A DNA stretch of 64,000 nucleotides from Bacteroidales bacterium (lineage in GTDB: Bacteria > Bacteroidota > Bacteroidia > Bacteroidales > F082): positions 62,001 to 126,000 of the forward strand of contig JAEFAE010000005.1 in NCBI GenBank assembly GCA_016291135.1. The letters are read 5' to 3'. Made by a program: the position numbers and the translations under genes. Shown here in pieces: positions 47,723-64,000 of this stretch (positions are counted from its first letter, which is position 1; every line of letters starts with the position of its first letter). A model generated the notes under the pieces. The model was not told the origin of the DNA. It saw only the letters and a list, made by a program, of their open reading frames with translations, and searched no databases.

Positions 47723-48217
47723 ATGAAATACGATATCAGAAAAGCAAATCCGAAAGACCTGCCAACCATTCTCAACCTTCGCGACCAAGCTCGTGAGATC
47801 ATGCGCAGCTACGGCAACACGTTCCAGTGGCCCGACGGCTATCCCTACGATGAGAAGTTCATCCATGACATTGAACAAGGCTGCAGCTATGTGATGGCTG
47901 ACCAAACTGGCGCCATCGTTGGCACCTTCGCCCTCATTCCCGGCCCCGACATCACCTATAAAGTCATCTACGACGGCCAGTGGCTCGACGATGAGCCCTA
48001 CCATGTCATCCACCGCATTGCCAGCACGCCGCAATCCCATGGCATCCTTGACGCCGTGCTCGACTTCAGCGAATCCATCGCCAAAAACATCCGTATCGAC
48101 ACCCACGAGGCGAACATCATCATGCGCAAAGGTTTGGAAAAACACGGATACCAGTATTGCGGCATCATCCATCTATTAAATGGCGACGAACGGATGGCAT
48201 TTCAGAAAAAAGCTTAA
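47723..48217 (+). CDS. GNAT family acetyltransferase
   Basis: 164-residue protein starting MKYDIRKANPKDLPTILNLRDQAREIMR, the GNAT beta-1/alpha-1 opening. A central IVGTFALIPGPDITYKVI strand pair follows, then HVIHRIASTPQSHGILDAVLDFSESIAKN, where Q/R-x-x-G/A-like contacts with acetyl-CoA are expected (SHGI), and a C-terminal LEKHGYQYCGIIH. The substrate is unknown. It follows the AlkD-like gene by 30 bp. Its stop codon overlaps the -7 box of the next gene. Confidence 0.82.
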   Translation: MKYDIRKANPKDLPTILNLRDQAREIMRSYGNTFQWPDGYPYDEKFIHDIEQGCSYVMADQTGAIVGTFALIPGPDITYKVIYDGQWLDDEPYHVIHRIASTPQSHGILDAVLDFSESIAKNIRIDTHEANIIMRKGLEKHGYQYCGIIHLLNGDERMAFQKKA

Positions 48218-48222
48218 CTTTG
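48215..48222 (+). promoter_or_regulatory. -7 box of the next gene
   Basis: TAACTTTG overlapping the GNAT stop codon and 42 bp before the next ATG at 48265. Confidence 0.45.
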
Positions 48223-48264
48223 CGATACTAAACGTTGCGCCCGACACGGACCAGGGCTTTACCC

Positions 48265-49026
48265 ATGAAAAAGCTCTTGATTGTTTGCATCCTGTTACTT
48301 CCCATCGCAGGAACCCTAAAGGCACAAGACATCATCGTCACTAAAGAAGGCAAGGACATCCAAGCCAAAGTCCTTGAAATTACCGAAACCGAAATCAAAT
48401 ATCTGGATTTCGAGAATCAGGAAGGTCCAACATACGTGTTGAACAAAACCAATGTCCTCCTCATACGGTATCAAAACGGCAAAAACGAAGTATTTTCCGT
48501 CGATTCCACCCCAACTGGAGAACCTTACAAACCCCAACCATACGTCTCTGAAGGAATGCGTTACAGGGATTACAAAACACTCTACAACTACCGCAATTAT
48601 ACCAAGCAATTTGGTGATCCTTATAACCCAACATTGTCCGGCGTGGCATCGTGGCTGATTCCAGGCCTTGGTCAAGGAATATGCGATGAATGGGGACGGG
48701 GCGCAGCGATCTTTGGAGGATACATCCTGGGGTCAATGGCATGGGCGGTGTCTATCGTAGGGACATCACACGTTGGCCCTAATGGCTCCGATTCTTTCTA
48801 TCCAGACCCTACAGTTGTTTTGCTAAGTACTACGCTATTGGCTGCTTACAACGTCTGGAATATCGTCGATGCGGTCCATGTCGCTAAGATCAAAAACATG
48901 TACTATCGGGATATTCGGGGACGGCAAACAAGCCTCCAGATGAACATTTCTCCCAGCTTCACCTATATTCACACCCCCGAAACCAGCGCTCCCGTGATGG
49001 GCCTATCGATGCATATCGGTTTTTGA
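48265..49026 (+). CDS. Secreted or membrane protein of unknown function
   Basis: 253 residues: signal peptide (about 1-21, GTLKAQ) and an N-terminal domain (DIIVTKEGKDIQAKVLEITETEIKY, FENQEGPTYVLNKTNVLLIRYQNG) widespread in secreted Bacteroidota proteins. Two hydrophobic segments follow (ASWLIPGLGQGICDEWGRGAAIFGGYILGSMAW and VVLLSTTLLAAYNVWNIVDAV), with a C-terminal strand-like tail ending SMHIGF. Loop GLGQGICDEWGRG resembles the DUF5683/TM2-like turn. The gene is more AT-rich than its neighbours. The omega-amidase gene follows in 3 bp. Confidence 0.68.
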   Translation: MKKLLIVCILLLPIAGTLKAQDIIVTKEGKDIQAKVLEITETEIKYLDFENQEGPTYVLNKTNVLLIRYQNGKNEVFSVDSTPTGEPYKPQPYVSEGMRYRDYKTLYNYRNYTKQFGDPYNPTLSGVASWLIPGLGQGICDEWGRGAAIFGGYILGSMAWAVSIVGTSHVGPNGSDSFYPDPTVVLLSTTLLAAYNVWNIVDAVHVAKIKNMYYRDIRGRQTSLQMNISPSFTYIHTPETSAPVMGLSMHIGF

Positions 49027-49029
49027 TCT

Positions 49030-49857
49030 ATGAGTGAGCTGCGAATCTCTCTTATCCAAGCCGATCTCCGTTGGGAAGACCCTGACGGTAACCGCACGCA
49101 TTTCGATCAGCTATTGAAAGAAGTGCCCGCTGGTGCAGATCTGGTGTTGCTTCCCGAGACCTTCAACACGGGGTTTCCAGTGGATCCTCTAAAGTTTGCC
49201 GAAACACAGGACGGCCCTACCATGAACTGGCTGAGCAACAAAGCCCAGGAGTTGAATGCCGTGATTTGTGGCACTATGCTTCTTAATATAGATGGCCATT
49301 ACCATAACAGCTTGGTGTGGATGCGTCCCGATGGCAGCTATGCGTTGTATCACAAACGGCACACCTTTGCGATGGGCGGGGAAAAGGAGCCCATTGAACC
49401 CGGTAAAGCACCCCTGGTTGTTGAGCTCAAAGGCTGGAAAATCAAGCCGATGATCTGCTATGACATTCGTTTCCCTTTATGGGCTAGGAACCACTATCAG
49501 AATGGAGTTTACGATTACGATTTGGGCATCTATCTGGCGAACTTCCCCGAATCGAGGATCGAGGTATGGAATACGCTGCTGAAGGCCCGAGCCATCGAGA
49601 ACCAGACCTATTATATCGGCGTGAACCGCATCGGCGACGATCCCGAAGGCGTGCATTATAACGGCAAGTCGCAGATGATCAACGCCCGGGGTGAGATCCT
49701 TTGCCTAGCCGAGCCCGACCAAGAAACCGTGCTTTCTTTTACCCTCAATTATGAAGCACTCCAGCACTTCCGCGAGAAATTCCCCGTTGGAAAAGATTGG
49801 GATTCGTTTTGCACCCATACAAATCATTTTAATCATGAAAAAAACCCTCTTTCTTAG
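49030..49857 (+). CDS. Carbon-nitrogen hydrolase, omega-amidase type
   Basis: 275-residue cytoplasmic nitrilase-fold amidase. Catalytic Glu43 (LLPETFNTGF), Lys109 (LYHKRHTF) and Cys143 (MICYDIRFPLWARN) are present. The loop NTGFPVDP and the final EKFPVGKDWDSF match YafV/omega-amidase, which deaminates alpha-ketoglutaramate or alpha-ketosuccinamate. It is the last cytoplasmic gene before the secreted peptidase, whose start codon lies 22 bp inside its 3' end in another frame. Confidence 0.9.
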   Translation: MSELRISLIQADLRWEDPDGNRTHFDQLLKEVPAGADLVLLPETFNTGFPVDPLKFAETQDGPTMNWLSNKAQELNAVICGTMLLNIDGHYHNSLVWMRPDGSYALYHKRHTFAMGGEKEPIEPGKAPLVVELKGWKIKPMICYDIRFPLWARNHYQNGVYDYDLGIYLANFPESRIEVWNTLLKARAIENQTYYIGVNRIGDDPEGVHYNGKSQMINARGEILCLAEPDQETVLSFTLNYEALQHFREKFPVGKDWDSFCTHTNHFNHEKNPLS

Positions 49858-51790
49858 CATTCTCTTGATTGCCGCCTCCACCATGAAGGCGCAATTCCAT
49901 TGGGAACCCATCGATCACCAAGGCAATCGGGCACAGACCTATCCCAAAGTCACTGAAATCAACCCCGAAATCCAAGCCATGATTGACCAAGTGGACACCA
50001 TCAACCTTTACAATAGCATCGCGTGGATGCAACAATTCATCCGAGAGGCCTATTCTCCCGAAGCGTTGCTGACGCAGAACTGGCTTGTTGAACAATACGA
50101 GGAACTGGGGTTGGAAACATCGGTCCATTACTTTGTTGACGAAGAGAACAATTGGCTTGAAGCGGGCAATGTTGTCGCCATTCAACCCGGAACGGTATAT
50201 CCTGACGAATACATCGTCATCTCCTCGCATTATGACCATCCAAGCGGTCCAGGTGCCGACGACAACGCCTCTGGCACCGCCGGCGTACTTGAAGCAGCAC
50301 GTATCTTAAGCCAATATGCATTGGATCGATCCATCATTTACATCAATTTCAACAATGAGGAATATGGACTCATAGGAAGCATGGGATATGCCAAAGAATG
50401 TGCCCGTCAGGACAAGAGCATCCTTGGCGTCTTCAATCTCGACATGATCGGATGGTATCCTCCGGAACTCGACACCGTGAAGATGTTCACTGCATGCTAT
50501 CATCTCAACAGAAAATTATACGATTATTATTACTCTGTAGCCAATCTGTATCTGCCCGAGACGCCAACATGCTGGAGAACAGGAGGAGAAACCACTAGGG
50601 GTGACCACATTCGGTTTTGCTCCTACCAGTATCCCGCCCTTTATCTTGGCGACACTGAGTATCTCTCTCAACATCCATGCTACCACAGTCCTTGTGACAC
50701 CATCGGAAGCGGCGTGAACAACTTCATTCTTGCAGGTGCTTTTGTAAAAGCCACCATTGCGGCCACAGCCGAACTAGCGAACGGAGACCTCCCACCCCAA
50801 CATTTTGCAGCCACCTGCGACAGTGCTGCCATTTACCTTCGATGGGATGAGACTGATAATGCAACACAATACCGGCTGTTTAGGGATCAGCAGCTGATAG
50901 CCGAATTAACCGAACCCTATTATGAAGACCATGACGCTAACGATGGTGAAATGCATGACTATCATGTTGTTTCAGTAAAGTCAGACGGAACAGAAAACAA
51001 CGAATCCAACCACGAGAAAATGATGGTCTCGCCTGCATTATCCCTTCCATTCCACAATGACTTCAACGACAATCTCAATGGGTTCAGGTTGTTGACAGAC
51101 ACTTGGCAACGCAATAAGAAATCCCAAAACGATTATTATCTCGGAGCAAAATCATACGTGAAAGACAGAGAAAACTTATTATCCATAGCAGAAACAGCGT
51201 GGTTCTCCATCCCCTCAGAAGTTTCCAATGCCACCCTTTGCTTTGATTTCATTACCATTGCCAGTTTTGATTACGAGATTAACAACTCCTCTTTCGCTCG
51301 TTTCAATATCGAAGTTACCACCGACCGAGTCCATTGGCATTTGTTGGATGCCATCCATTCACGCTACAAATGGCAACATATTGATCTTTCATTGAACGAT
51401 TATATCGGCCAGCCCTTTGTGCAGGTACGGATTCTCGTAGAAGATGCAAACTACTATAATCACGACAAAACAGGCCCCAAAAAGGCATACTTGTATGGAA
51501 TTGACAACTTTTCGATCCATTTCTCACCTGCAAGCATCCCCGAGACTCAAAACGACGGGTTCTTCTCACTTGAAATCTGCCCCAATCCGTCAAATTCCCA
51601 GATCGAAATCCATACCGATTTGAACGATACCTATCGATTGACCGTTTACAATATCACGGGAATCAAAGTAATGGAACAAACCGATTTTCATGACGGAATC
51701 CTTGACATCACAACCTTACCTGCTGGATTGTATTTCATCAAAGCCACACAAGGCAACAAATCCATCGCAAAAAGAATCCTGAAAAAATAA
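49835..51790 (+). CDS. M28 family metallopeptidase exported by T9SS
   Basis: 651-residue secreted aminopeptidase. Signal peptide about 1-20 (STMKAQ). The M28 domain (about 60-330) has the zinc ligands His132 and Asp142 (HYDHPSGPGADDNASG), Glu175/Glu176 (NNEEYG), Asp203 (LDMIGW) and the later CYHSPCD. An Fn3/jelly-roll-like domain (about 335-545) follows. The C-terminal 75 residues form a T9SS type A sorting domain (ICPNPSNSQIEIH, LTVYNITGIKVMEQ, LPAGLYFIKATQGNK). The start codon is the ATG at 49835, with 23 bp overlapping the amidase gene. The middle of the gene is AT-rich compared with the neighbours. Confidence 0.93.
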   Translation: MKKTLFLSILLIAASTMKAQFHWEPIDHQGNRAQTYPKVTEINPEIQAMIDQVDTINLYNSIAWMQQFIREAYSPEALLTQNWLVEQYEELGLETSVHYFVDEENNWLEAGNVVAIQPGTVYPDEYIVISSHYDHPSGPGADDNASGTAGVLEAARILSQYALDRSIIYINFNNEEYGLIGSMGYAKECARQDKSILGVFNLDMIGWYPPELDTVKMFTACYHLNRKLYDYYYSVANLYLPETPTCWRTGGETTRGDHIRFCSYQYPALYLGDTEYLSQHPCYHSPCDTIGSGVNNFILAGAFVKATIAATAELANGDLPPQHFAATCDSAAIYLRWDETDNATQYRLFRDQQLIAELTEPYYEDHDANDGEMHDYHVVSVKSDGTENNESNHEKMMVSPALSLPFHNDFNDNLNGFRLLTDTWQRNKKSQNDYYLGAKSYVKDRENLLSIAETAWFSIPSEVSNATLCFDFITIASFDYEINNSSFARFNIEVTTDRVHWHLLDAIHSRYKWQHIDLSLNDYIGQPFVQVRILVEDANYYNHDKTGPKKAYLYGIDNFSIHFSPASIPETQNDGFFSLEICPNPSNSQIEIHTDLNDTYRLTVYNITGIKVMEQTDFHDGILDITTLPAGLYFIKATQGNKSIAKRILKK

Positions 51791-51796
51791 CCTTTT

Positions 51797-52240
51797 ATGC
51801 CAATTTCCGTTTTCTCCGACGAATACTATATGAAACAGGCCTTCAAAGAGGCCGAACTGGCCCTGGAAGCCGAAGAAATCCCCATTGGGGCTGTGGTAGT
51901 ATGCAATGACAAAATCATCGCCCGGGCCCATAACCAGACCGAGATGCTCAACGACGTGACCGCCCATGCCGAGATGCTCGCCATCACCGCAGCAGCCAAT
52001 GCCCTTGGTGCCAAATACCTCGACGAGTGCACCCTCTACGTCACCTTGGAGCCCTGCCCCATGTGTGCCGGCGCCCTTGCCCATAGCCACATCGGCAAGG
52101 TGGTCTATGCCGCCGACGATCCCAAAAACGGGTTCTCCAAATACGGGAACATGCTGCATCCCAAAACCAAAATCGTCGCCGATGTGATGAAGGATGAGTG
52201 TCTCGCCCTACTTACCAGTTTTTTCAAGAAGAAAAGATAG
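51797..52240 (+). CDS. tadA: tRNA-specific adenosine deaminase (TadA)
   Basis: 147-residue zinc deaminase making inosine at the tRNA wobble position of tRNA-Arg. The HAE motif (His57, Glu59) and PCPMC (Cys87, Cys90) are the zinc and proton-shuttle residues. Length matches the family. The gene begins 6 bp after the peptidase stop; it is a housekeeping gene whose linkage to a secreted peptidase is probably coincidental. A TTTTGCGCAAAA palindrome lies 5 bp after the stop. Confidence 0.96.
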   Translation: MPISVFSDEYYMKQAFKEAELALEAEEIPIGAVVVCNDKIIARAHNQTEMLNDVTAHAEMLAITAAANALGAKYLDECTLYVTLEPCPMCAGALAHSHIGKVVYAADDPKNGFSKYGNMLHPKTKIVADVMKDECLALLTSFFKKKR

Positions 52241-52247
52241 AAGATTT

Positions 52248-52316
52248 TGCGCAAAATGAGCGTTTCTGCGCAAGCGCTTTCGCCGTATTTTGCCAAGATA
52301 GTGCTATTTTTGCGCA
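52248..52316. promoter_or_regulatory. TGCGCA cluster and -7 box before the AraC gene
   Basis: Three TGCGCA hexamers (52248-52253 within TTTTGCGCAAAA, 52267-52272, 52311-52316) surround a TATTTTTG -7 box at 52305-52312. Two more copies lie at the far end of the adjacent membrane-protein gene (53659, 53678). This is consistent with repeated operator sites for the AraC product, but the binding is inferred. Confidence 0.45.
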
Positions 52317-52336
52317 TTGTTGTTAGAAACAAAGCC

Positions 52337-52981
52337 ATGACCGGACCCCAACAACTTATCGTAGCCGTCATCGTTGTATTCGTGATCGCCTTCGCCATCA
52401 CAATGATTGTGTTGAACAAACATGCGAATAACATGATTTCGACCAATAAGAAATTGGTGGAAAACCAAAACGCCCTACTGGAACAAAACACGCAACACAA
52501 GATCAACTTGGAAAAACGCATCGATGAGTTGGAAGAGGAGCTAAAACACCACATCGTTGATGAAGTCACGCTACTGCAAGAACAGACCCGCCAACATCGT
52601 GAACATTTTGAGCTGACCGCCAACATGAGCGACGAAGAGCTGATGAACTGGATCGACCAAGAGATGGATGAAAAGCGGCTCTACACCGATAGTAACCTGA
52701 CACTGAAAACGATGGCCAAGGCGCTGGGACTGACGCAAAAACGATTGTGCACACTTTTCAAAAACAACGAAAAATACACCAGTTTGGGCGACTATCTGAA
52801 CGAGAAACGCCTGCTCTTGGCTTGCCGTCTGTTGCGCGAGAATCCCAATTGGACCATCGAAGCCGTGGGGACGGAGGCCGGATTCGGAAGCCGCCGCACT
52901 TTCCAGATGGAGATGAAACGCCGACTCGGCATCACACCTTTACAATACCGGCAAAGTACGGAAAGCGTCATTTCCCAATAA
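52337..52981 (+). CDS. Membrane-anchored AraC family regulator
   Basis: 214 residues. One N-terminal membrane helix (LIVAVIVVFVIAFAITMIVL, about 7-26) leads to a coiled coil (about 40-85, LEKRIDELEEELKHH) and a C-terminal AraC double helix-turn-helix (about 105-210: TLKTMAKALGLTQKRLCTLF and IEAVGTEAGFGSRRTFQMEMKRRLGITPLQYR). This layout, without a sensor domain, resembles the cytoplasmic part of Bacteroidota hybrid regulators. The ATG at 52337 is the first after the -7 box. It overlaps the convergent membrane-protein gene by 14 bp. The target is probably the neighbouring surface protein cluster. Confidence 0.87.
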   Translation: MTGPQQLIVAVIVVFVIAFAITMIVLNKHANNMISTNKKLVENQNALLEQNTQHKINLEKRIDELEEELKHHIVDEVTLLQEQTRQHREHFELTANMSDEELMNWIDQEMDEKRLYTDSNLTLKTMAKALGLTQKRLCTLFKNNEKYTSLGDYLNEKRLLLACRLLRENPNWTIEAVGTEAGFGSRRTFQMEMKRRLGITPLQYRQSTESVISQ

Positions 52982-53582
52982 GCACCCGCCGTTGCACCCA
53001 AGCGTACACCACGATGACAGCGATGGTGGGAATCTCCATCGGCAGGTTGGCCAACCCCGACTCAGGACCGACGATCAGGAAAGAGACCACGGGTAAAATG
53101 CTGGAAACCAAAATATAAAGCACCATCCAAAGCCCCACTTGCCACAGCCTCCCACGATAGTTATACATCAAGAGACAACCCAAAGGAACATAAACCAACA
53201 TCAACGACACCGCCAGAGGAAGCCCTACACTGAACATGATGGCAGGAATCATCCCTGTCACAAATCCAGCAAGGTTCAGCGCAATGACCACCCACCACCA
53301 TATCTTGAACGGACGATACAGCGGCTTCATGCCTCGCATCAAACCCACATACATCACCACAGGTCCTAATGTCTGAACGATCGCACTCACCCAAGAGAGG
53401 TGGGCGTCGTTGAACCAATGCATCAGCGGCGACCAATTAAGAACGGCCTGAAACAGATAGCAAACAAACGCTGCCTCAATAAGCCAACGAGGCAAACCAG
53501 CGTCCAGGTGATTTACCGTGCATTGGTCCTCGATACTGACCGCATCCTCAACAATCGCTTGCTGTTGCTCTTTCGTTTTCAT
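52968..53582 (-). CDS. Integral membrane protein of unknown function
   Basis: 204 residues with about six membrane helices (LIEAAFVCYLFQAVLNW, WVSAIVQTLGPVVMYVGLM, WWWVVIALNLAGFVTGMIP, IMFSVGLPLAVSLMLVYVP, VGLWMVLYILVSSILPVVSFL, IPTIAVIVVYAWV). The N-terminus is cytoplasmic and polar. No family is recognised. A TATCTTTG -7 box at 53588-53595 ends 5 bp before the ATG, so the mRNA would have almost no leader. Convergent with, and overlapping, the AraC gene; the pair is flanked by TGCGCA sites on both sides. Confidence 0.78.
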   Translation of the reverse strand: MKTKEQQQAIVEDAVSIEDQCTVNHLDAGLPRWLIEAAFVCYLFQAVLNWSPLMHWFNDAHLSWVSAIVQTLGPVVMYVGLMRGMKPLYRPFKIWWWVVIALNLAGFVTGMIPAIMFSVGLPLAVSLMLVYVPLGCLLMYNYRGRLWQVGLWMVLYILVSSILPVVSFLIVGPESGLANLPMEIPTIAVIVVYAWVQRRVLIGK

Positions 53583-53587
53583 GACTG

Positions 53588-53732
53588 CAAAGATACGTTA
53601 TTATCACTTTGTGGAGCGCGATGTTCTCGTTGGTGGACGGCGCAAAGAAATGCATTTCTGCGCAAAGCAGGATTATCTGCGCAACAAGCCAAAAAAAGTC
53701 CCATCAGATGTCATTCCCTTAGTATATTTTTG
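53588..53732. promoter_or_regulatory. Intergenic control region with two TGCGCA sites
   Basis: Minus-strand TATCTTTG (53588-53595) serves the membrane-protein gene. Plus-strand TATTTTTG (53725-53732) serves the downstream lipoprotein cluster, with no good -33. TGCGCA palindromes at 53659-53664 and 53678-53683 lie about 40-65 bp upstream of the plus-strand box, a typical activator distance. Confidence 0.5.
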
Positions 53733-53783
53733 TTTTTTTAAATAAGAAAAGCGACGGATTTATCACATCGCATCAGAACGCAA

Positions 53784-54893
53784 ATGTCTTTTTGCTGCAA
53801 AAATAGGAACCGATTTGTCCGCATGATTTTATGTGGATGGATGTTGTTGGCGATCATGGTGGGCTGCACCAAGGATCCCATCATCCTGCCGAATCCCGAC
53901 GAAGAACAACCCAGCGGAGCGCCGCTAGTCATTGTCATCTATGGCCCCAACTCGTTAGGCGATCGTTCCTATTGCGACATGATTTACACCGGCGTGGAAA
54001 AGGCCGCCCAACAACACGGTTTGCGCACTTTACAGTTCTCGCCTGAGAGCGAAGAGGAAGGACTGGCCTACTTGGAGACCATCATCAGCGAGATGGAACA
54101 AGCCTCTGACACGGTGCGCCGACTGCTCATCACCCCCGGCGTGGGCTACGACGCCTACCTCCGCGCCAACAGCCACCGTCTGGAATCCAACCCCCGCGCC
54201 GACTTGCTCTATCTGGAAACCTCCACGCCGCTCGAAAGCAAAGGCTCAACACTCTACATCAACTACTACGGTGCGATGTACATGGGTGGTTGCATGGTGC
54301 ATTACACTACTTACAACTACACCGACAAAGAAGTGGTGTCGTTGGTGTTGGCCAACCCTTACACGGAATCGGTGCGCGAGGCGGGTGAGGGTTTTGTGGC
54401 GGGCTTCAACGACACGCAGGGCCTTGAACCCTTGGAACTGCACATCCGTTACTTGAGTCAGGAACCCGCCGGTGGATTCACGCTGAGCGACACGGCCGCC
54501 ATCCGCATCATCAGAGAGGAAAGCACCTGCCCTGGCGATTTTTCAGAAAGCATTACGCTGGTACCCGTTTGTGGCGGCGCCATGCATAGCCTGATACGTG
54601 CCATCCGAGGAACCCTACTGTTTGCCATGAACCAATACATAGGCATCGACGGCGACATGAATGCCGACAACTTGTCATGCCCCTTCTCCATCGTGAAACA
54701 TGTCGATAGGGTGATGGAAGACTATGTCGGGATGTGGCTTGAGGGTACGATGCCCAAGCACCAAACCCTCGGCCTGGCCGATGGAGCCACAGGGGTCATC
54801 GTCGGCAACTTTTTTGTACCCAACGATTTGAATCTCATTGATATAGATAGTTTGTGGCAAGTGGCGGTAGAGAAAGAGAAAAGAAGACTTTAG
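53784..54893 (+). CDS. Lipoprotein, BMP/PnrA-like periplasmic-binding fold
   Basis: 369 residues (356 from an in-frame ATG at 53823, which starts just before the hydrophobic segment). Lipobox IMVGC. The mature domain resembles the basic membrane protein/PnrA family of substrate-binding proteins: VIYGPNSLGDRSYCDMIYTGVEKAAQQHG, a mid domain with YGAMYMGGCMVHYT and VVSLVLANPYTESVREAGEGFVAGF, and YIGIDGDMNADN near the hinge. No ABC transporter gene is present, so it probably binds a ligand or acts as a surface receptor rather than feeding a permease. It is the first gene of a cluster continuing to the window end. Confidence 0.72.
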   Translation: MSFCCKNRNRFVRMILCGWMLLAIMVGCTKDPIILPNPDEEQPSGAPLVIVIYGPNSLGDRSYCDMIYTGVEKAAQQHGLRTLQFSPESEEEGLAYLETIISEMEQASDTVRRLLITPGVGYDAYLRANSHRLESNPRADLLYLETSTPLESKGSTLYINYYGAMYMGGCMVHYTTYNYTDKEVVSLVLANPYTESVREAGEGFVAGFNDTQGLEPLELHIRYLSQEPAGGFTLSDTAAIRIIREESTCPGDFSESITLVPVCGGAMHSLIRAIRGTLLFAMNQYIGIDGDMNADNLSCPFSIVKHVDRVMEDYVGMWLEGTMPKHQTLGLADGATGVIVGNFFVPNDLNLIDIDSLWQVAVEKEKRRL

Positions 54894-54916
54894 AATTTAG
54901 AATTTAGAATATAGAG
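54889..54916. repeat. 7-bp tandem repeat spacer
   Basis: Four heptads, TTTAGAA three times and TATAGAG, running from inside the stop codon of the preceding gene to the base before the next gene's TTG start. The same heptad in the opposite orientation (CTAAATT) occurs within the coding sequence at 62164-62191. Confidence 0.8.
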
Positions 54917-57220
54917 TTGGAAAATAAGAAATATAATTGGGTTGCTTTTTTCTTCTTCATCCTTTGCTTGACGGGATGTCATAAGGAAGATGAATACATC
55001 TACCAGGACAGTCGTAGATGGGTGGAGAAGACGGTGGCGGTAGTGGCACCGACCTCCGACCCCATCATGAAGGCCCGTCTGGAACGTACGGCTGACTGGA
55101 TGTTGCAAAACCTGCACAACGCCCAACTGCACGACACGCTCTGCATCGACCTGAAACTGGAATGGTATGATGAAGACGCCGAGGACATGGCTGCTTTAGG
55201 CGAGGAGTTGGCCTCACGCGACGATGTGATGGCCGTCATCGGGCCCTTCAACAACGACCGCGCCAACCGCTTTGCTCCCTATTGCCAACGGACCAACAAG
55301 CCGCTCATCCTGCCCACCGCCACCAGCGAGTCGCTCATCCGCCGTTTCGCCATCACCAGCACCGGCGACGGCCAACGGCCTTTCCTGTGGTCGCTTACCG
55401 AGACCGACATCTCACAGTCGGAGGTGATGCTCAGCCTCTGTGCCACCTACCTGCAACAATATCCCGACGTAGTGATCAGCGAAATGTCCTCGTTAGCCGC
55501 CCTCTTCACGCCCAACAACAGCTATGGGCAGACTTTCTATGACTGGGCGCCCTTCCAGGCCACCGAGTTAGGCATCAACTTCAATTGGTGCGAGAAGTAC
55601 CAAAACGACGATCAGTTCTACCAGCGTCTGCAAAGCTACTATGACGAAATAGGAGCATACTTTTTTAGTTTATACATTCCCTCCTTAATTGTAACCGAAA
55701 ATGCGGAGCAACTCTACCAGATCGCCCGTATGCGTAGCCTGTGGTTGGAAATCGACCCCGACGACCCTGCGGGCGACAACGATGAAGAGGCCTATCTCCG
55801 CGTGGTTTATGCCCCCGTCTATCTTGCCCTGTCTAACCTCACCGATGAGGCCATCGAAGCCCTTGGTCCCCGTGGTGTGGCACTCACCAGCGGCTATAAA
55901 GGCTATTCACCCTACGCCGACCCCACCACTGGCTTTGAGATGAGCTACGAGAGCCTTTTCGGCGTGAAGCCCACCTTCGCCGAATGCAAGTTCTACGATG
56001 CCCTGCTGCTCTCCGCCTTCGCGGCAAGCTATATGGAACACCAACACACCGACAACCTGAACGATGCCATCATCGCCATCACCACCACCGACAACCTCCT
56101 CAACGGTGCCGCCTGGAGCGAGATGGGCATGGAACTCTACCTGACCAGCCTCGAACGGGGCAAGTTGATCGGATTCAAAGGCGCCTGCGGTGCCGTACAA
56201 TTCGACAAGGATTGCTATACCGCCGCACTCAACACCACCTACGTCAACTGGGTTATTATTGACGGCCGTGTGCAGCATCAGGGCTATTACAGCACCTCAG
56301 GGAGCGTGCAAACGGGCGAGGCCTTGGCTTCGTGGAACTGGATCGCCAGCAATGCCGCCGCTGCCTTCGACGCGCAATATGGCGGCTCGTCCGACCTCAC
56401 CTACCCGGCCATGACCGACCAGTACGCCGTATTGGTGCAAGGCAGCAACGGCTGGAGCAACTACCGTCACGAGGCCGACGTGCTCAACGTGTATCAGATG
56501 CTGAAAGCCGGCGGCTACGACGACGACCATATCATCATGGTTTTGGCCGACGAAGTGGCTACTGCACCCGAGAACACCGACTATGGCGCTGTCCGCACCG
56601 ACCCCAACGGTCCCAACCTGCGCGAAGGCGCCGTCATCGACTACCGCAGTGTTGACCTCACCCCGCAAGACATCGTCAACATCTTGCAAGGCACCCCCAC
56701 CAGCCGTACGCCTGTGGTGCTGCCTGGCGGCTCGGGACACAACGTCTTCTTCTTCTGGAGCGGACACGGCCGTAGCGTGCCTGCCGGTGGCGTGAACGAG
56801 ATGACATGGCGCGACCAGCCCGCTGGCAACGGCATGACCGCTGAGCTCCTTGCCCAGACCCTCTCGCAGATGGCCGCGCAAGGGCGTTTCCGCCAGATGC
56901 TCATCTGCCTCGAACCCTGTTTCTCGTCCAACATGGGCAAAGCCCTGGAAGGGATTCCCGGCCTGTTGGCCATCTGCGCCGCCGGACCCTACGAGCAGTC
57001 GTTTGCCGACTCGTGGAGCAACGAGTTGGGCATCTGGATGTGCGACCGCTTCAGTCGCAACCTCGTGGGCCACGCCACCACCCACCCCAACGGCACCTAC
57101 CGCGACCTCTACCTCTACTGCGCCCAACACACCCTCGGCTCGCACGTCAGTATCTTCAACCACAATAACTTCGGTAATCTTTATACCTTACAAACCCGTG
57201 ACTTTTTTATGAATGAATAA
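54917..57220 (+). CDS. Lipoprotein: Leu/Ile/Val-binding-type domain fused to C13 legumain-like protease
   Basis: 767 residues from a TTG start (no ATG is available before the signal), with lipobox ILCLTGC (Cys21). Residues about 36-440 form a type 1 periplasmic-binding fold like branched-chain amino acid receptors: VAVVAPTSDPIMKARLERTA, VMAVIGPFNNDRANRFAPYCQ, PLILPTATSESLIRRF and LFTPNNSYGQTFYDWA. A linker leads to a C13 peptidase-like domain (about 510-740): YAVLVQGSNGWSNYRHEADV, DDDHIIMVLADEV, catalytic His617 in FFFWSGHGRS and Cys668 in LICLEPCFSSNM. Legumain relatives cut after Asn or Asp or act as transamidases. The joining of the two folds in one lipoprotein is unusual. Spacer before it is a 7-bp repeat. 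Confidence 0.83.
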   Translation: MENKKYNWVAFFFFILCLTGCHKEDEYIYQDSRRWVEKTVAVVAPTSDPIMKARLERTADWMLQNLHNAQLHDTLCIDLKLEWYDEDAEDMAALGEELASRDDVMAVIGPFNNDRANRFAPYCQRTNKPLILPTATSESLIRRFAITSTGDGQRPFLWSLTETDISQSEVMLSLCATYLQQYPDVVISEMSSLAALFTPNNSYGQTFYDWAPFQATELGINFNWCEKYQNDDQFYQRLQSYYDEIGAYFFSLYIPSLIVTENAEQLYQIARMRSLWLEIDPDDPAGDNDEEAYLRVVYAPVYLALSNLTDEAIEALGPRGVALTSGYKGYSPYADPTTGFEMSYESLFGVKPTFAECKFYDALLLSAFAASYMEHQHTDNLNDAIIAITTTDNLLNGAAWSEMGMELYLTSLERGKLIGFKGACGAVQFDKDCYTAALNTTYVNWVIIDGRVQHQGYYSTSGSVQTGEALASWNWIASNAAAAFDAQYGGSSDLTYPAMTDQYAVLVQGSNGWSNYRHEADVLNVYQMLKAGGYDDDHIIMVLADEVATAPENTDYGAVRTDPNGPNLREGAVIDYRSVDLTPQDIVNILQGTPTSRTPVVLPGGSGHNVFFFWSGHGRSVPAGGVNEMTWRDQPAGNGMTAELLAQTLSQMAAQGRFRQMLICLEPCFSSNMGKALEGIPGLLAICAAGPYEQSFADSWSNELGIWMCDRFSRNLVGHATTHPNGTYRDLYLYCAQHTLGSHVSIFNHNNFGNLYTLQTRDFFMNE

Positions 57221-57273
57221 ACAATTAAAAAACATAAACAATTAATAATCAATTATTTAAAAACATTCTAAAA

Positions 57274-57882
57274 ATGAAACGTAACATTTTATTGACCCTG
57301 GCCGCCGTCGTGGTTTGCGGCCTGGCAGTGACCCTGTTCACCCAATGTAAAAAAGAAAACAAGAACCCTGAGGTGAAGATGATGTACTATGTCTCCGTCA
57401 GTCCCGACGTGCTCAACGTGGCCGACGTGGAAATCAACTACCTCGACGCTACCGGTGCCAAACAGAAAGAAGTCTTGACCGACTCCGTCTGGCGTAAACC
57501 CATGACGACCAACACCCTGCCTCTCACCGAGGGCGTCTGGGCCAAACTCACCCCCAAGGCTTCCATCGCCGAGGGCAACTACCAACTGCGCATTCACACT
57601 GTCGCCGCCTACGACATCACCCTAACCGACGGCACAAATGCGCATGGTGGTTGGGAAAACAGTGACAGCGACATCACTATTGTCCAAAACTCAGAAGAAG
57701 TGTCCGCCTGGTGTGCCCAAAGCCCCGCAATAGCCTGCATCATCGATAAGGAGGGCAATTCCGAAAATACCCAGATTGATTTTGGTGGCAACTCTTATTA
57801 TGATAAGTTTAAAGACTTGGGTTGTGTTTTCTGGTGCTGGCTTTTTGGAAATGACCCAGAAGAGTGCTGCGATACGTGGTAA
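57274..57882 (+). CDS. Small lipoprotein with Cys-rich C-terminus
   Basis: 202 residues: N-terminal hydrophobic segment and possible lipobox TLFTQC (Cys25). The middle is beta-rich (MMYYVSVSPDVLNVADVEINYLDATG, ANYQLR-like strands in GNYQLRIHTVAAYDITL). The C-terminal end is very unusual, GCVFWCWLFGNDPEECCDTW, with four Cys and three Trp in twenty residues. No family recognised. It lies 53 bp after the C13 gene and 47 bp before the next lipoprotein, so it is likely cotranscribed; it could be a partner, substrate or disulfide-linked tail. Confidence 0.62.
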   Translation: MKRNILLTLAAVVVCGLAVTLFTQCKKENKNPEVKMMYYVSVSPDVLNVADVEINYLDATGAKQKEVLTDSVWRKPMTTNTLPLTEGVWAKLTPKASIAEGNYQLRIHTVAAYDITLTDGTNAHGGWENSDSDITIVQNSEEVSAWCAQSPAIACIIDKEGNSENTQIDFGGNSYYDKFKDLGCVFWCWLFGNDPEECCDTW

Positions 57883-57929
57883 CGTATTGTGATAAACTGA
57901 AAAAGCAAACCTCTAAATAACGATACACA

Positions 57930-58709
57930 ATGAAGAAAATATTGGCATTACTGGTCCTTGCGACCATCGTCTTCGCAGGCTGCACCAAAGACAAAGTCAA
58001 CAACCTCGAAGAGCAGATCATCGGCAAATGGATGACAGCCGACATCAACGGCCAGCCCGCACCGACTAACGAGAAGGTGGTGCTCACCTTCATCTCGGAT
58101 ACCAAGGCAACCATGAGCGCTTCCATCGACCATCAGGAAGGTGGTTCTCCTTGGGATGTTTTGGCTGAAGAAAAAGTCTCCATCAATGGCAACACGGTCA
58201 CACTAACCGGCCAGCCCGACGAAAACAGGACGATCGTGGACGAAAACAACATCACTGCCATCAATGACAGGGAGTTTACCACGAATCGTACCATAACCAT
58301 TACAATGGATGGCTCTGAGGTGGTCACCAGACAATTTGTCGACCGCTTCGTCAAGGTTAACGACGACTACAAGCAGGCCGTCCTCGGCACCTGGGAAGGC
58401 CATGTCACCAGCGATCAGTCGGAATATGACGACTACCTCGAGCACCGCTGGCAGTACAACGCCGACGGCACTTACGTTTACTACAACAAGGACGGCAACA
58501 ACTGGATCCCCAATCCCCTCAACACCCTCAACGAATACTTCGTGGACGGCAACCTGCTCTGCATGCGCTGGATCAACAACGGCGCCGAGTACCGCGAATG
58601 GTGGGAGGTTGCCTCCATCGAGGACAACGTCATGAGCTGGACCGCCCTCCGCAAAAAAGCCGACGGCACCACCTACACCGCCAGCTTCAGCATGGTGAAG
58701 GTACAATAA
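57930..58709 (+). CDS. Lipoprotein with two lipocalin-like domains
   Basis: 259 residues; lipobox ATIVFAGC (Cys18). Two similar units each begin with a G-x-W signature: IIGKWMTADINGQPA (about 30-44) and VLGTWEGHVTSDQ (about 150-162). Each has strand-rich repeats with TxxxADGTYxYY-like features, the Bacteroidota lipocalin-like (DUF4923/5004) style. Probably a surface or periplasmic binding lipoprotein; ligand unknown. It sits 47 bp after the Cys-rich lipoprotein and 55 bp before the T9SS protein. Confidence 0.72.
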   Translation: MKKILALLVLATIVFAGCTKDKVNNLEEQIIGKWMTADINGQPAPTNEKVVLTFISDTKATMSASIDHQEGGSPWDVLAEEKVSINGNTVTLTGQPDENRTIVDENNITAINDREFTTNRTITITMDGSEVVTRQFVDRFVKVNDDYKQAVLGTWEGHVTSDQSEYDDYLEHRWQYNADGTYVYYNKDGNNWIPNPLNTLNEYFVDGNLLCMRWINNGAEYREWWEVASIEDNVMSWTALRKKADGTTYTASFSMVKVQ

Positions 58710-58764
58710 ATAATAATCCAATAGAAACAATCTGATAACCAATAAATTAACACACAAATAGGAG

Positions 58765-61700
58765 ATGAAAAGAAAAACACTCCTTTTCTTGATGCTGATG
58801 GCGATGTTCTCGCCTTTGGCATTGAACGCACAAATAGTGCTTTTGTCTGAGAACTTCGACGACATGACAGGGAACTTCAGCGACAACTATTCTGCCGATG
58901 GATGGTTTGCTTACAATGCGGGTAACGGCCACAACTGGAGCCTTAACACCTATTCCAATTATGCGCACAGCGGATCAAAAAGCGCGGAGTATTTTTATAC
59001 TCAAAGCAATGGGGCAAACTGCTATCTGGTATCTGCTCCGTTTGACGTAAATGCCAATGCGTCTGAACTCAGCGTAAGCCTGTGGGAGAGGGTTCGTAAT
59101 TCGAATAATGCCGAAACGTTTAGTGTGTTCTTCGTAAAGGCAAGTGATGTACCCACAGCAGCTGCTGTTGCTTCCGCAACGCGGTATAGCGCTATTGCAT
59201 CTGCTTCCTATACCAACAATACCTTTGTCGAGAGGTCTGGTTCCGTCACGAGTGCCGCGCTTGCCGGCCAAAGCGTTAGAGTAGTTGTTCACTGCACTTC
59301 TCCTGCTAACCGGTATGCGCTCTACATTGACGACATTACCGTCACGGAAACGATAACAACTGACCCCTATATCACACTCGAGCCTGCTACCGCAACGATA
59401 AGCTATGGATTCACGGAAACCCTTACCGCTACATACCACAATGTAAGCGGCACACCCACCATCACATACAGTTCAAGCAATACCAGCGTGGCCACAGTGA
59501 GCGGCAGCGGCACCACGGCCACTGTGACTGGCGTGGCCCCTGGCACTGCTACCATTACCGCAATCATGATAATTGACGAAAGTGATTACACCGCCACTTG
59601 CACCATCACCGTTACAGAACCAAGCTATTGCACACCTTATTATTCTAATTCCGACGCCGATTACATCTATATCGCTGGTTTCAGCACTGAGGATGGCGAG
59701 ACCAATATCAGCAACACGGGCACTTCGTTATCCTCTGGCGGTTACTTCGACTACTTCAACTCCCATTCCGCATCAGCAGAGGCTGGACAAACCATCGGAT
59801 TCACCGTCACCCCTGGAAGCTTCGTCCCTACGATGAAATACGGCATGTGGATTGACTGGAATCAGGACTATGATTTCAATGATGTTGGCGAAAATGTGGC
59901 TATTCAGAACAGCGGCATCCAAACCAATTGGACTGGCATCATCTCCATTCCTATCACCACGCTCCCCGGAAGCTATCGCGTACGTATTGAGGGAATGTAC
60001 TCTGGAGATGTTGATTTAAACCCATGTGTTGATGGACATAATGGGGAAGCGGAAGACTACCAGCTTATTGTGCTTCCGGCTTCATCCTGCCCCAAGCCCA
60101 GCAACGTCCAACTATCTGCTTCAGACGACATAGTAACCGTCACATGGAGCGGCTATGCCTCCTCTTATAATATCAATATCAACGGTACCGTGACCAACAA
60201 CGTCACCAGCCCTTATGTCTTCACGGGTGAATTATCAACCACCTACACCATCATGCTTCAAGCCAACTGCGAAGGTAATGAAACCAGCGATTGGAGCAAC
60301 CCTAAAAACATCACAATAGACTGCTTAGAGGAAGACAAATGCGCCGTTACCGTTACCTTTACCGACTTATGGGGTGAAGCCTCTGGATATATGTATGTGG
60401 CAGATGCCAACACGAACACTATTTTGGCTGAGATCACACTCAATAATAACTCAGAGACGATCCAAATCTATGTTTGCGACGGCACTGAACTTGATTTCTA
60501 TTACTACGCCCAAGACTATTACGCATACCAAAACGGTTATATCATCACGGCCCCCACGGGTGAAGTGATCGCTGAGCATGAGGGCTGCGAAGACCCATTT
60601 GATGAATGCTCAGCACCTAATGATGGCATTGTCGCCTCTTACACCATGAACTGCCCTCATGATTGCACAACACCGTCTGAGCTACAAGCCGAAGTCACGG
60701 GTAACACTGCCAAACTTCGCTGGTCAAGTAACCAAGAAAGCTACAATGTACAATACCGTAAAGTGCTCTTCTACGAAGACTTCGAAAATGGCTTGCCTGA
60801 TACTTGGACCACCATCGACAACAATGGTGATGGTTACGACTGGTATGTTGACAATAATATCGAAATAGCCCATGGTGGCACACACATAGCTGCTTCTGCA
60901 AGTTACGTTTACGACAACGATGTTCACAACATCTCTCCCGACAACTGGCTGATTACGCCCCAGGTTGAACTCAATGGCACCATGAGCGTGTGGTTGCGCA
61001 GCGCACTATATTGGCAACCCGATAATTTCGCCATCTATGTCTCTACGAATGGCAATTCCGTTGAAGACTTCAACACCATTTTGGTTGCAGAAAATATAGC
61101 AGGAGGAGAATACACGGAATATACTGCTGATTTGAGCAGCTATAACGGACAAGCAGGTTACATTGCTATCCGCCATTTCAACTCCGAAGGTATGCGCTTG
61201 CTTCTTGACGACTTCCGCATCTACGACAACGACATACAAAGCGCAACCGCTACTTCAGGATCCTTAACCATCAACGATTTGGATTCTAATTCCTCCTATG
61301 AGTGGCAAGTGCAGGGCATCAACCAAGACTGCGACGGAGGCACTACTGAATGGAGTGAATGTGCTTTCTTCACCACGCCTATCGCATACACCCTCTTCAT
61401 CGGCGGCTATGAAGAAGACTTTGAAGATCCCGATGGCGGCTACTACCTCATCGCTTCGCCTGTCACCGTGAATCCTGCCGATGCGATCGATTCCTATACG
61501 CAACAAAGCATGATCGATGGCAAATTCGACCTCTACTACTTCGACCAAAGCCAAGACCTTGAGTGGATCAACTACAAAGGCAACAATGGCAACTTCAACC
61601 TCGAGCCTGGCAAGGGCTACCTCTACGCCCACAATACTTTTGGCATGTTCACCCTCACCGGCACGCCTTACAGCGGCAATGGCGTCATTGAGCTGGATTA

Positions 61701-62526
61701 TGACAGCAATGCCGCCGAGTTCGCTGGCTGGAACCTCCTGGGTAACCCTTACAACTACCAAGTCTCCGTTAACAAAGCTTTTTATGTCATGAACGAAGAA
61801 GGTACGGAAATAATCTCTGCCGACGAAACCAAGCCAATTGCGCCGATGCAAGGCTTCTTTGTGGTGGCTACTGGAGAAGGCCAAACGGTTACCTTCTCGG
61901 AGTGGCACGCTCCTTATGTACCCCTTGACAAGTTAGTCATGAACCTGACCAACAAACGTGGTGCCACCATCGACCGCGCCATCGTGCGTTTCGACGAAGG
62001 CCGCCAGCTGCCCAAGTTCCAACTCAACAAGCACCACACGAAGGTCTATATCCCGCAGGACGGCAAGGACTACGCCATCGTCAACGCCGAGAACCAAGGC
62101 GAGCTGCCCATCAACTTCAAGGCTGAAAAGGACGGCACCTACACCCTTTCAGTCTCAGAATCTCTAAATTCCAAATTCTTAATTCTCAATTTAATCGACA
62201 ACCTCACCGGCACCGACGTTGACCTCCTCGCCAACCCGAGCTACCGCTTCGAGGCCAAGACCACCGACTACGAGAGCCGCTTCAAACTGGTCTTCGCCAC
62301 TGGCAACGCCACCGACGACCACTTCGCCTACATCAGCAACGGCACCCTTATCGTCAACGGCGAAGGCACCTTGCAAGTCATCGACATACTGGGCCACATC
62401 CTTCTTAGCCAAGAAGTCCATGCTGACTCCTGTCATCTGTCTTCTGACTTCCTCACCAGTGGTGTTTACGTGCTCCAACTCGTCAACGGCGATCAAGTGA
62501 AGACACAAAAGATCGTGGTTAAGTAA
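58765..62526 (+). CDS. Large T9SS-exported multidomain surface protein
   Basis: 1253 residues. Signal peptide about 1-23 (FSPLALNAQ). Domains in order: choice-of-anchor J/MAM-like (about 27-195, LSENFDDMTGNFSDNYSADG), bacterial Ig-like Big_2 (about 200-285, SSSNTSVATVSGSGTTATVT), GEVED domain (about 290-435, IDWNQDYDFNDVGENV), Fn3 (about 440-520), an insert with SYNVQY Fn3 start and a second MAM-like jelly roll (about 660-840, LFYEDFENGLPDTW). Next come a region around 870-1040 (FIGGYEEDFEDPDGGYYLIASP) and a T9SS sorting domain at the end (QVIDILGHILLSQ, LTSGVYVLQLVNGDQVKTQKI). Likely a cell-surface adhesin or binding protein. A heptad repeat lies inside its 3' coding region. Confidence 0.9.
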   Translation: MKRKTLLFLMLMAMFSPLALNAQIVLLSENFDDMTGNFSDNYSADGWFAYNAGNGHNWSLNTYSNYAHSGSKSAEYFYTQSNGANCYLVSAPFDVNANASELSVSLWERVRNSNNAETFSVFFVKASDVPTAAAVASATRYSAIASASYTNNTFVERSGSVTSAALAGQSVRVVVHCTSPANRYALYIDDITVTETITTDPYITLEPATATISYGFTETLTATYHNVSGTPTITYSSSNTSVATVSGSGTTATVTGVAPGTATITAIMIIDESDYTATCTITVTEPSYCTPYYSNSDADYIYIAGFSTEDGETNISNTGTSLSSGGYFDYFNSHSASAEAGQTIGFTVTPGSFVPTMKYGMWIDWNQDYDFNDVGENVAIQNSGIQTNWTGIISIPITTLPGSYRVRIEGMYSGDVDLNPCVDGHNGEAEDYQLIVLPASSCPKPSNVQLSASDDIVTVTWSGYASSYNININGTVTNNVTSPYVFTGELSTTYTIMLQANCEGNETSDWSNPKNITIDCLEEDKCAVTVTFTDLWGEASGYMYVADANTNTILAEITLNNNSETIQIYVCDGTELDFYYYAQDYYAYQNGYIITAPTGEVIAEHEGCEDPFDECSAPNDGIVASYTMNCPHDCTTPSELQAEVTGNTAKLRWSSNQESYNVQYRKVLFYEDFENGLPDTWTTIDNNGDGYDWYVDNNIEIAHGGTHIAASASYVYDNDVHNISPDNWLITPQVELNGTMSVWLRSALYWQPDNFAIYVSTNGNSVEDFNTILVAENIAGGEYTEYTADLSSYNGQAGYIAIRHFNSEGMRLLLDDFRIYDNDIQSATATSGSLTINDLDSNSSYEWQVQGINQDCDGGTTEWSECAFFTTPIAYTLFIGGYEEDFEDPDGGYYLIASPVTVNPADAIDSYTQQSMIDGKFDLYYFDQSQDLEWINYKGNNGNFNLEPGKGYLYAHNTFGMFTLTGTPYSGNGVIELDYDSNAAEFAGWNLLGNPYNYQVSVNKAFYVMNEEGTEIISADETKPIAPMQGFFVVATGEGQTVTFSEWHAPYVPLDKLVMNLTNKRGATIDRAIVRFDEGRQLPKFQLNKHHTKVYIPQDGKDYAIVNAENQGELPINFKAEKDGTYTLSVSESLNSKFLILNLIDNLTGTDVDLLANPSYRFEAKTTDYESRFKLVFATGNATDDHFAYISNGTLIVNGEGTLQVIDILGHILLSQEVHADSCHLSSDFLTSGVYVLQLVNGDQVKTQKIVVK
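62164..62191 (+). repeat. In-frame 7-bp tandem repeat inside the T9SS protein gene
   Basis: CTAAATT, CCAAATT, CTTAATT and CTCAATT follow one another, encoding LNSKFLILNL in an otherwise GC-balanced region. Related T9SS proteins typically carry a segment ending in 'YLHLIDN' before TGxDVDLL; here LNSKFLILNLIDN stands in its place. It is the reverse complement of the spacer heptads at 54889-54916. Confidence 0.75.
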
Positions 62527-62560
62527 TTAATAAAACAAAAATTATAATCATCTACTAACA

Positions 62561-64000
62561 ATGAAAAACATTAAAAGAAACACACTCCTTTTCATGATGC
62601 TTATGGCGATGTTCTCGCCTCTGGCATTGAACGCACAAGACTTGGCTGATTACACCTATACCACGGGTGTTGATGCCAATCGATGGATTACCCTGGACGA
62701 CCCACAAACTGCCATGTCTAGCGGTCACGACGATGATGCCTCCAGCCTTCTCCCCATGGGAACCGACTTCTCTTTCCACTTCGGAAACGGCACCTATACC
62801 CAGTTCTGGGTAAATTCCAATGGTATGTTCTCATTCTCCACTGAACCTTTGGGAATTGATAGGTTCTGGTCCGACTCGCGCTTCCCCAAAATATGTGGTA
62901 TTTCCGCAGATCTTAAGACAGGCGAGGTGGGTTACATCAACTATCAGTTGACCGGCACCGCACCCAACCGTGTTTTCGTGTGTGAATTTGTGATGGACCC
63001 AAACCAACTACAGAGCAGTTACTCCGATGTGAAATGGCAAATCCAACTCTTTGAGGCGGACTCAAAAGTGGTCATCATCTACGGCTCAGCACCTTATACG
63101 AATCCTAGATATTACCAGAGCGGTATTGGCCAGTCGGCCAACGACATCTGGCTTATGGACCCACAATCCCATGCCGCTACTCACTACACCTCTATTCCTG
63201 AAGGAAGATCAATAGGCTGGCACGGAGGATATCGCTACTACGAGTTCAACCCACCGGTTTGCTTCTACTCCACCACGGGTCTTGCTGTTGTTGAAAACAG
63301 CCTCACCACCCGTGGCGTAACCATGCAATGGGATGCCGAGGTTGGCGACATGTTCGACTATGCCATTGAATTGGGCACCGACATCGACCCCCAAGCCGTG
63401 ACCTACGCTGGACCGATCACTGCTACCGAAACGACTTGCAGCATGACCTGGGACAACCTGATTCCCAACAGCGACTACACCGTCTTCATCCGCAGCAACT
63501 GCGGAAACGGTGCATTTGGCCAACCTGCAACCAAGGTCATCCACACTGAAGTCGCCTTCAGCACTCTCTCCAACCTCACCGCTACGGCCAACGGAAGAAC
63601 CGCCACCGTGACTTGGGAAGGCGATGCGGATTCATACGAAATCGCATGGTCTGTCGATCCTGACGCCGACCCCGACCAAAACATCGATTCAGATTTCCAA
63701 ATCAGCGGTACTACGGGTTCGAAAGAATTCACGACAATCGACACCAGGTACTACTTCTGGGTGCGCGCCTACGATAGTGAAGATGGCTATAGTCTTTGGG
63801 AAGGCCCTGTGGAAACCTATATCGGCTATTGCAGGCCGAATCCCTGGACAATGGACGGAAGCGGTATCTACCAATTCCTCTTTGAGGGCACAAAGACGAC
63901 AGCCAACCACGACAGACCCAGAGAATTTCCTTATTATGGTTACTACATCGACAAAATCTGCGAAATGAATGAGACAGCTATCGTGTCTATCCTTTATGAA
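62561..64000 (+). CDS. Second large T9SS-type surface protein (3' end outside window)
   Basis: 480 codons visible, open to the window edge. The signal peptide (about 1-26, LMAMFSPLALNAQ) is nearly the same as in the preceding gene, with about 55 bp at the start almost identical in DNA. After it the protein is beta-rich: YTYTTGVDANRWITLDD, DFSFHFGNGTYTQFWVNSNG, then Fn3-like modules (TTRGVTMQWDAEVGDMFDYAIEL and LSNLTATANGRTATVTWEGDADSYEIAW). No catalytic motif is visible. The 3' part, where a T9SS sorting domain would lie, is off the window. It continues the surface-protein cluster 34 bp after its neighbour. Confidence 0.85.
   Translation, partial: MKNIKRNTLLFMMLMAMFSPLALNAQDLADYTYTTGVDANRWITLDDPQTAMSSGHDDDASSLLPMGTDFSFHFGNGTYTQFWVNSNGMFSFSTEPLGIDRFWSDSRFPKICGISADLKTGEVGYINYQLTGTAPNRVFVCEFVMDPNQLQSSYSDVKWQIQLFEADSKVVIIYGSAPYTNPRYYQSGIGQSANDIWLMDPQSHAATHYTSIPEGRSIGWHGGYRYYEFNPPVCFYSTTGLAVVENSLTTRGVTMQWDAEVGDMFDYAIELGTDIDPQAVTYAGPITATETTCSMTWDNLIPNSDYTVFIRSNCGNGAFGQPATKVIHTEVAFSTLSNLTATANGRTATVTWEGDADSYEIAWSVDPDADPDQNIDSDFQISGTTGSKEFTTIDTRYYFWVRAYDSEDGYSLWEGPVETYIGYCRPNPWTMDGSGIYQFLFEGTKTTANHDRPREFPYYGYYIDKICEMNETAIVSILYE

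Follow-up and report, generated by a model that had tools for sequence, protein, structure and literature searches.

What does a bacterial lipoprotein do when a substrate-binding domain and a legumain-type (C13) protease share one polypeptide? The question is raised by a gene for a protein of 767 amino acids at positions 54917..57220 of a 64,000-nucleotide stretch of Bacteroidales DNA (contig JAEFAE010000005.1). The whole stretch is referred to below as the window; the fusion gene and the two lipoprotein genes that flank it as partners lie on its plus strand. A preliminary description of the sequence had noticed this combination, and searches based on the open reading frame (ORF), Pfam, folds and families showed that it is real. 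Clues to a function come from the partners of the fusion protein more than from the joining of its two domains. The reading proposed here, which is given somewhat less than an even chance, is that a surface-exposed lipoprotein uniting a LivK-type sensor with an Asn-directed C13 protease works with a Bmp-like lipoprotein and processes lipoproteins encoded in its own cluster. These would include a family with a GGN motif and a variable tail and, elsewhere, maybe MACPF proteins.

The fusion protein and its family

The C13 catalytic domain occupies residues 499-767 (56411..57217), where the Pfam model Peptidase_C13 scores 143.8 bits against a curated cut-off of 22.8. A legumain/GPI8 fold was found for this domain and a type 1 binding-protein fold for the N-terminal part, as the preliminary description had supposed for both. 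Alignment with legumain identifies the catalytic residues as His617 (SGHG; codon 56765..56767) and Cys668 (EPC; codon 56918..56920). The dyad is conserved in 82 of 83 proteins from the loci of a genome scan (114 found, 80 kept) and in 119 of the 120 relatives listed among 874 matches of a protein database search; the exceptions are a frameshifted gene (L099) and a fragment (P0008). By phmmer, Asn515, Arg517, His518, His617, Glu666, Cys668, Ser695 and Asp710 align with legumain positions that we take to be, in the same order, 42, 44, 45, 148, 187, 189, 216 and 231, with the roles assumed for each. Arg517, Glu666 and Asp710 presumably correspond to the S1 residues Arg44, Glu187 and Asp231; among the 83 loci proteins they are retained in 83, 82 and 77 cases, with Asn replacing Asp710 in four. 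Conservation of the dyad and of the S1 residues predicts an active, Asn-directed enzyme.

The fusion resembles legumain in sequence, fold, His-Cys dyad and S1 Arg/Glu/Asp. Animal and plant legumains carry a C-terminal activation peptide and prodomain. Unlike them, the fusion stops at residue 767, where the catalytic domain ends, with no legumain-type prodomain after it, and its N-terminal part consists of a lipobox followed by a binding-protein domain. The catalytic domain matches the fold of GPI8/PIG-K at equal Z (8imx_K, 28.8), and some relatives are named GPI8; this comparison covers the catalytic fold only. The partner subunits and glycosylphosphatidylinositol (GPI) acceptor of GPI transamidase are, to our knowledge, not expected in these bacteria.

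The binding domain (residues 36-457; 55022..56287) has the two-lobe type 1 fold and is of LivK type. The window protein falls below the curated Pfam cut-offs for binding-protein models (27.4 vs 31.7 and 20.8 vs 25.4), and a binding-protein Pfam domain is reported for 21 of the 120 listed relatives. When the search was started from distant members, PF01094 was present in all 120 relatives listed of 620 matches. Profile alignment sets the PTATSE loop of the fusion on the PSAT loop of LivJ, a comparison that points to no particular ligand. PHROGs and NCBIfam searches with the fusion returned no match.

The lipoprotein anchor claimed for the protein is borne out by a signal peptide with lipobox Cys21 (54917..54994), read from the sequence and compared among relatives. 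Its description as a surface protein was sustained in part: the acidic stretch after the Cys (CHKEDE) resembles an export signal, while the position itself is a prediction. An acidic surface-export signal after the lipoprotein Cys is described in PMC5080379. At least two Asp/Glu residues occur at +3 to +6 in 193 of 199 relatives having the Cys (203 were counted and four without it dropped). The fusion probably sits on the outer surface.

Far from a single-protein curiosity, the fusion represents a conserved family with recurring partner lipoproteins, and the same architecture recurred in the genome and database searches. All 120 listed relatives carry C13. The idea that the two domains were brought together by chance or by an assembly error was dismissed, since 119 of these 120 cover 98-100% of the fusion and all 120 in the second listing carry both domain types. 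Some relatives are named C13 peptidase, GPI8 or branched-chain binding protein in the databases, so the architecture is already known to annotation pipelines. Searches of the open-licence literature yielded no paper on such a bacterial legumain. The kept loci are labelled Bacteroidia, Bacteroidales or Prevotella-type in 77 of 80 cases (exceptions L084, L086 and L091), and many come from ruminant samples. Xylanibacter ruminicola is named among the listed matches. An intact fusion occurs in five of 149 relatives of the window's genome, all five in its genus, to which up to 90 genomes of this set belong. Distant homologues were found in three other families of the order (4 of 18, 7 of 56 and 1 of 13 genomes). 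The L091 contig (JAFPFL010000073.1), labelled Oscillospiraceae, holds a Bacteroidales-type locus and is probably a binning error.

A distant paralogue in one genome (G342; L154:5344-7557) has Asn and Ser in place of the catalytic His and Cys and, judged by these residues, should be catalytically dead. It lacks the Bmp gene, and the ORF upstream reads, from reading alone, like an outer-membrane receptor.

The GGN-tail lipoprotein

The proposed substrate is a lipoprotein of 202 amino acids encoded at 57274..57882, assigned to family A2 and modelled with AlphaFold2. Its FGGN motif (residues 170-173; 57781..57792) is where a beta domain ends in the model, and cleavage is proposed after Asn173 from the motif and the break in conservation. 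Residues 174-202 (57793..57879) form, by comparison of tails, a hypervariable Cys-bearing tail. No match to the protein was found in Pfam, NCBIfam and PHROGs. In the model, whose predicted local distance difference test score (pLDDT) is 84.2, the motif appears to close the beta domain and is followed by a dip in confidence (mean 65 at residues 171-180) and a short helical tail. No PDB match was obtained at E <= 0.001, which is not proof of a new fold.

With a hidden Markov model (HMM), 37 ORFs of the family were detected, spread over 28 of 81 loci. Together with 120 listed of 583 database relatives, these give a set of 157 sequences, some possibly duplicates. The motif [FW]GGN is present in 155 of them (139 with Phe, 16 with Trp). 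Asp precedes it in 142, and the tail after it is 20-37 residues long and contains Cys in 137 members. One of the two members lacking the motif has GDN; the other is a distant ORF on the antisense strand. The Cys-bearing class and the class with GAT/GAS tails (16 members) have the motif in common and differ in their tails. Among the 136 members of the Cys type, 129 different cores and 103 different tails were counted.

The variability begins sharply. In an ungapped comparison of 2687 pairs from 121 sequences, 80-99% identical over the 60 residues ending at Asn, identity was 1.00 at FGGN and the preceding Asp, then 0.56, 0.44 and 0.19, and 0.11-0.32 further on. Since having the motif was the selection criterion, the value of 1.00 at its four positions follows automatically; the family-wide value is 155 of 157. 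With gaps allowed (1500 of the 2687 pairs), median identity was 0.89 over the 28 residues before the cut and 0.43 over the tails. The controls gave 0.86 for another core stretch, 0.29 for tails of random pairs and 0.20 for a shuffled tail; tails of close relatives thus retain some likeness, far less than the core. The motif places Asn exactly at the onset of variability, which fits an Asn-directed cut there. The layout of a conserved front, a fixed motif and a hypervariable C-terminus follows the pattern of polymorphic toxins, to which the GGN lipoproteins may or may not belong. No consistent immunity gene was seen with GGN lipoproteins.

The window's genome holds a second GGN gene with a different tail, about 9 kb downstream and beyond the window (L141:10412-11829; genome G000, contig C22, 3 kb past the window end). 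It is again followed by a relative of the lipoprotein encoded at window positions 57930-58709. The large secreted protein encoded between the copies is likewise duplicated in tandem (window 58765-62526 and L141:6062-10354), the first of the two with Cleaved_Adhesin and GEVED domains and a sorting tail of the type IX secretion system. In Prevotella loci, very long proteins (~2260 amino acids) stand beside GGN lipoproteins of the Trp type (L036:7764-14585, L044:1376-8149 and others); the one scanned, from L036, is a BspA-type leucine-rich-repeat protein.

Partner genes across clades

The fusion family mostly travels with a Bmp-like lipoprotein and, by clade, with GGN lipoproteins, other lipoproteins or MACPF proteins. 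A full-length GGN lipoprotein is encoded in all five fusion-bearing genomes among the 149 relatives and in none of the 144 without the fusion (Fisher 1.7e-9, uncorrected for descent). In the latter group, one genome (G045) has a partial GGN match with an internal stop, and others have short, weak matches. The co-occurrence partly reflects shared descent, because the genes are neighbours. All 36 Asn-bearing ORFs of the GGN family in the 81 loci are on the strand of the fusion, with up to four copies in one locus (L031). Among 49 fusions with at least 50% identity, GGN lies within 6 kb in 26 and a family of ~790-aa lipoproteins in three; the two never occur together.

The most constant partner is a PnrA/Bmp-like lipoprotein of 369 amino acids (53784..54893), identified by alignment, Pfam and linkage. 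It is the first gene of a conserved pair and ends 23 bases before the fusion. Its Cys28 is invariant in 19 aligned sequences. The Bmp match of the window copy is weak (E 0.19); that of L156 passes PF02608 (35.3 bits, cut-off 24.1), and a PDB search with the Bmp profile gave two weak matches (E 0.0065 and 0.011). By clustering, the gene occurs in 69 of 81 loci, in all of them adjacent to the fusion and on its strand; it is upstream of 60 of the 67 fusion genes having at least 1.5 kb of upstream sequence. When ORFs are taken from the first start codon, 65 of these 69 gene pairs overlap, and in 32 the overlap is 11 bases long. Among distant loci read (L152-L156, L180-L188), the Bmp-like gene is present in 11 of 14, the exceptions being L154, L155 and L180; these loci are not all independent, since one genome contributed both L186 and L188, and L181, L182 and L185 are near-identical in appearance.

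The locus in the window thus encodes two binding-protein-like lipoproteins. A permease gene, whose lack the preliminary description pointed out, was not recognised among the ORFs scanned at positions 48000-64000. Unlike LivJ and LivK, the binding domain of the fusion is joined to a protease and is probably surface-exposed, and its window neighbourhood shows no recognised permease.

MACPF genes are found in fusion clusters of three other families: two in L152, three in L155, two in L156, three in L180, and one plus a contig-end fragment in L186. Outside the genus, 12 genomes with the fusion were searched; five contain MACPF genes, each with at least one within 7 kb of the fusion. The whole-genome search placed 11 of 13 MACPF genes near the fusion (all in G196, 2; G412, 2; G376, 3; G541, 3; and one of three in G491). 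As a control, the family to which G376 belongs was searched across 56 genomes; five of these contained nine MACPF genes, six of them beside the fusion and three single ones in fusion-less genomes. These searches covered genomes other than those of the Prevotella-type loci. PF01823 had no match in the window's genome (83% complete) or among the window proteins scanned.

Divergent fusion loci (L070:12353-16227 and similar) contain the ~790-aa lipoprotein, whose N-terminus is BACON-like, together with another lipoprotein that in some cases matches discoidin or DUF4972. The idea that the ~790-aa proteins are hidden MACPF members was not supported. Pfam matches up to E 10 were BACON in six of 11, BACON_2 in two and five other families once each, with no MACPF, and profile comparison with the MACPF set gave a match confined to N-terminal columns 15-141 (probability 71%).

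Proposed mechanism and rival explanations

In the proposed mechanism, the fusion would be anchored in the outer membrane as a lipoprotein, probably exposed at the surface. Its LivK-like domain would sense or hold a small ligand, and its legumain-type domain would act as a cysteine protease directed at Asn. The fusion would work with the Bmp-like lipoprotein from the gene just upstream, and this partner and the binding domain may set the timing of protease action, much as the preliminary description had supposed of ligand binding. The protease would process surface lipoproteins of its own cluster. In the clade of the window, it probably acts on the GGN-tail lipoprotein. Cleavage directly behind the Asn of [FW]GGN would free or remove a tail that is short, highly variable and usually Cys-bearing. 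The fusions of some other Bacteroidales families may mature MACPF pore-formers instead. A bacterial legumain with its own binding domain, a candidate substrate next door and a predicted cut site would have a directly testable role.

Several observations weigh against this mechanism. The predicted model of the fusion is weak at the active-site loops (pLDDT below 50 at 512-515 and 691-710). A subfamily of GGN lipoproteins has Cys-free tails (16 of 155) and is probably under-represented among the relatives listed. In a wider search of 50 of the 80 kept loci, in 48 genomes, a GGN match at E <= 1e-20 was present in 32 genomes and missing in 16, and several matches are on contigs other than that of the fusion. 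Among 34 fusions below 50% identity, the ~790-aa family is near 17 and GGN near one, never both. When the count is limited to fusions flanked by 4 kb or more of upstream and 3 kb or more of downstream sequence, GGN and the ~790-aa family accompany 12 and 1 of 22 (at least 50% identity) and 1 and 10 of 17 (below 50%). No MACPF match was found in seven of the 12 fusion genomes outside the genus, nor in the five tested within it. The three MACPF-linked fusions aligned (L152, L155 and L156) all have Asn for Asp231, and L155 and L156 have Asp for Glu187, so their specificity may differ. Finally, an ABC-ATPase-like ORF, presumably of LptB type, directly follows the fusion in L044 (L044:12436) and L066, which makes a transport link possible in some loci.

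Nutrient scavenging is an unlikely explanation. A surface asparaginyl peptidase would cut dietary or host proteins, the binding domain would capture amino acids or peptides, and GGN would be unrelated cargo. The distribution of the loci with many ruminant samples, the LivK-type fold and the export-like signal are all consistent with this. It is opposed by the lack of a recognised importer beside the fusion in the window, by a conserved neighbour that is a second binding-type lipoprotein rather than a permease, and by the co-occurrence of GGN and the fusion in the 149 relatives.

This co-occurrence also bears on the view, which we consider quite improbable, that GGN merely ends the beta domain and that the tail is an uncut, diversifying binding or antigenic tip, the genes clustering without an enzyme-substrate link. 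The predicted position of the motif at the domain end agrees with such a tip, as do the GGN copies on other contigs. The view leaves unexplained both this co-occurrence and the retention of Asn across two tail types.

A transamidase or ligase, which would cut after GGN and join the new Asn end to an amine of another surface molecule, like GPI8 or plant asparaginyl ligases, is a similarly long shot. The fold cannot separate hydrolase from ligase. The GGN lipoproteins already have an N-terminal lipobox, and no acceptor or partner subunit was found, nor was any search made for one.

In cystatin-type legumain inhibitors, an Asn docks in the S1 pocket. That GGN lipoproteins are likewise dedicated inhibitors or regulators of the protease, with tails varying for other reasons, is the most doubtful proposal: a near-invariant Asn at a domain boundary, the gene linkage and the legumain-cystatin complex 4n6o among the fold matches of the fusion model speak for it, but hypervariability from exactly after Asn fits a cut site or domain boundary better than a reactive loop, and up to four copies stand in one locus.

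For the proposed processing of cluster-encoded lipoproteins, parallels exist in the C11 proteases, which belong to the same clan as C13; we know of no binding-protein domain on those of Bacteroidales. According to the sources, fragipain and DpnA/DpnB are likewise surface lipoprotein cysteine proteases that mature toxins (PMC9308784, PMC11169675, PMC12853789), and cleavage by surface C11 proteases activates BcpT and CDCL (PMC9308784, PMC11169675). The same sources describe the Bacteroidales C11 enzymes, in contrast to the predicted specificity here, as Arg/Lys-directed, with activity also outside toxin-producing strains. If the proposed mechanism is true, the fusion would be their Asn-directed counterpart, and variable Cys-loop peptides would have a source not recognised before.

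A link to MACPF proteins would mirror in bacteria the trimming of perforin-2, a MACPF protein, by animal legumain, a cleavage reported in PMC7614779 to be dispensable for pore formation in vitro. The BSAPs, according to PMC12853789, are surface lipoproteins with a MACPF domain. MACPF lipoproteins encoded beside some distant fusion relatives resemble them, whereas the window's own genome gave no MACPF match. The word legumain does not occur in the main text of PMC12853789. A broader scheme is conceivable but unlikely: a sensor-gated legumain would release hypervariable disulphide-loop peptides, serving Bacteroidales of the ruminant gut as a polymorphic system for signalling or antagonism. In some other families the cargo would instead be MACPF pore-formers, and the animal counterpart would be legumain maturing perforin-2.

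Upstream of the module, the window encodes an AraC-type helix-turn-helix protein with an N-terminal hydrophobic segment (52247-52981), whose cluster is present in 10 of 81 loci and which may or may not regulate the module. In L181, L182 and L185 (G545, G510 and G506), the Bmp-like and fusion pair looks near-identical across two genera, judged by printed ends and scores; in G506 the fusion is divided between two overlapping frames. The pair stands there beside ORFs that read, from reading alone, like transposases and is perhaps mobile.
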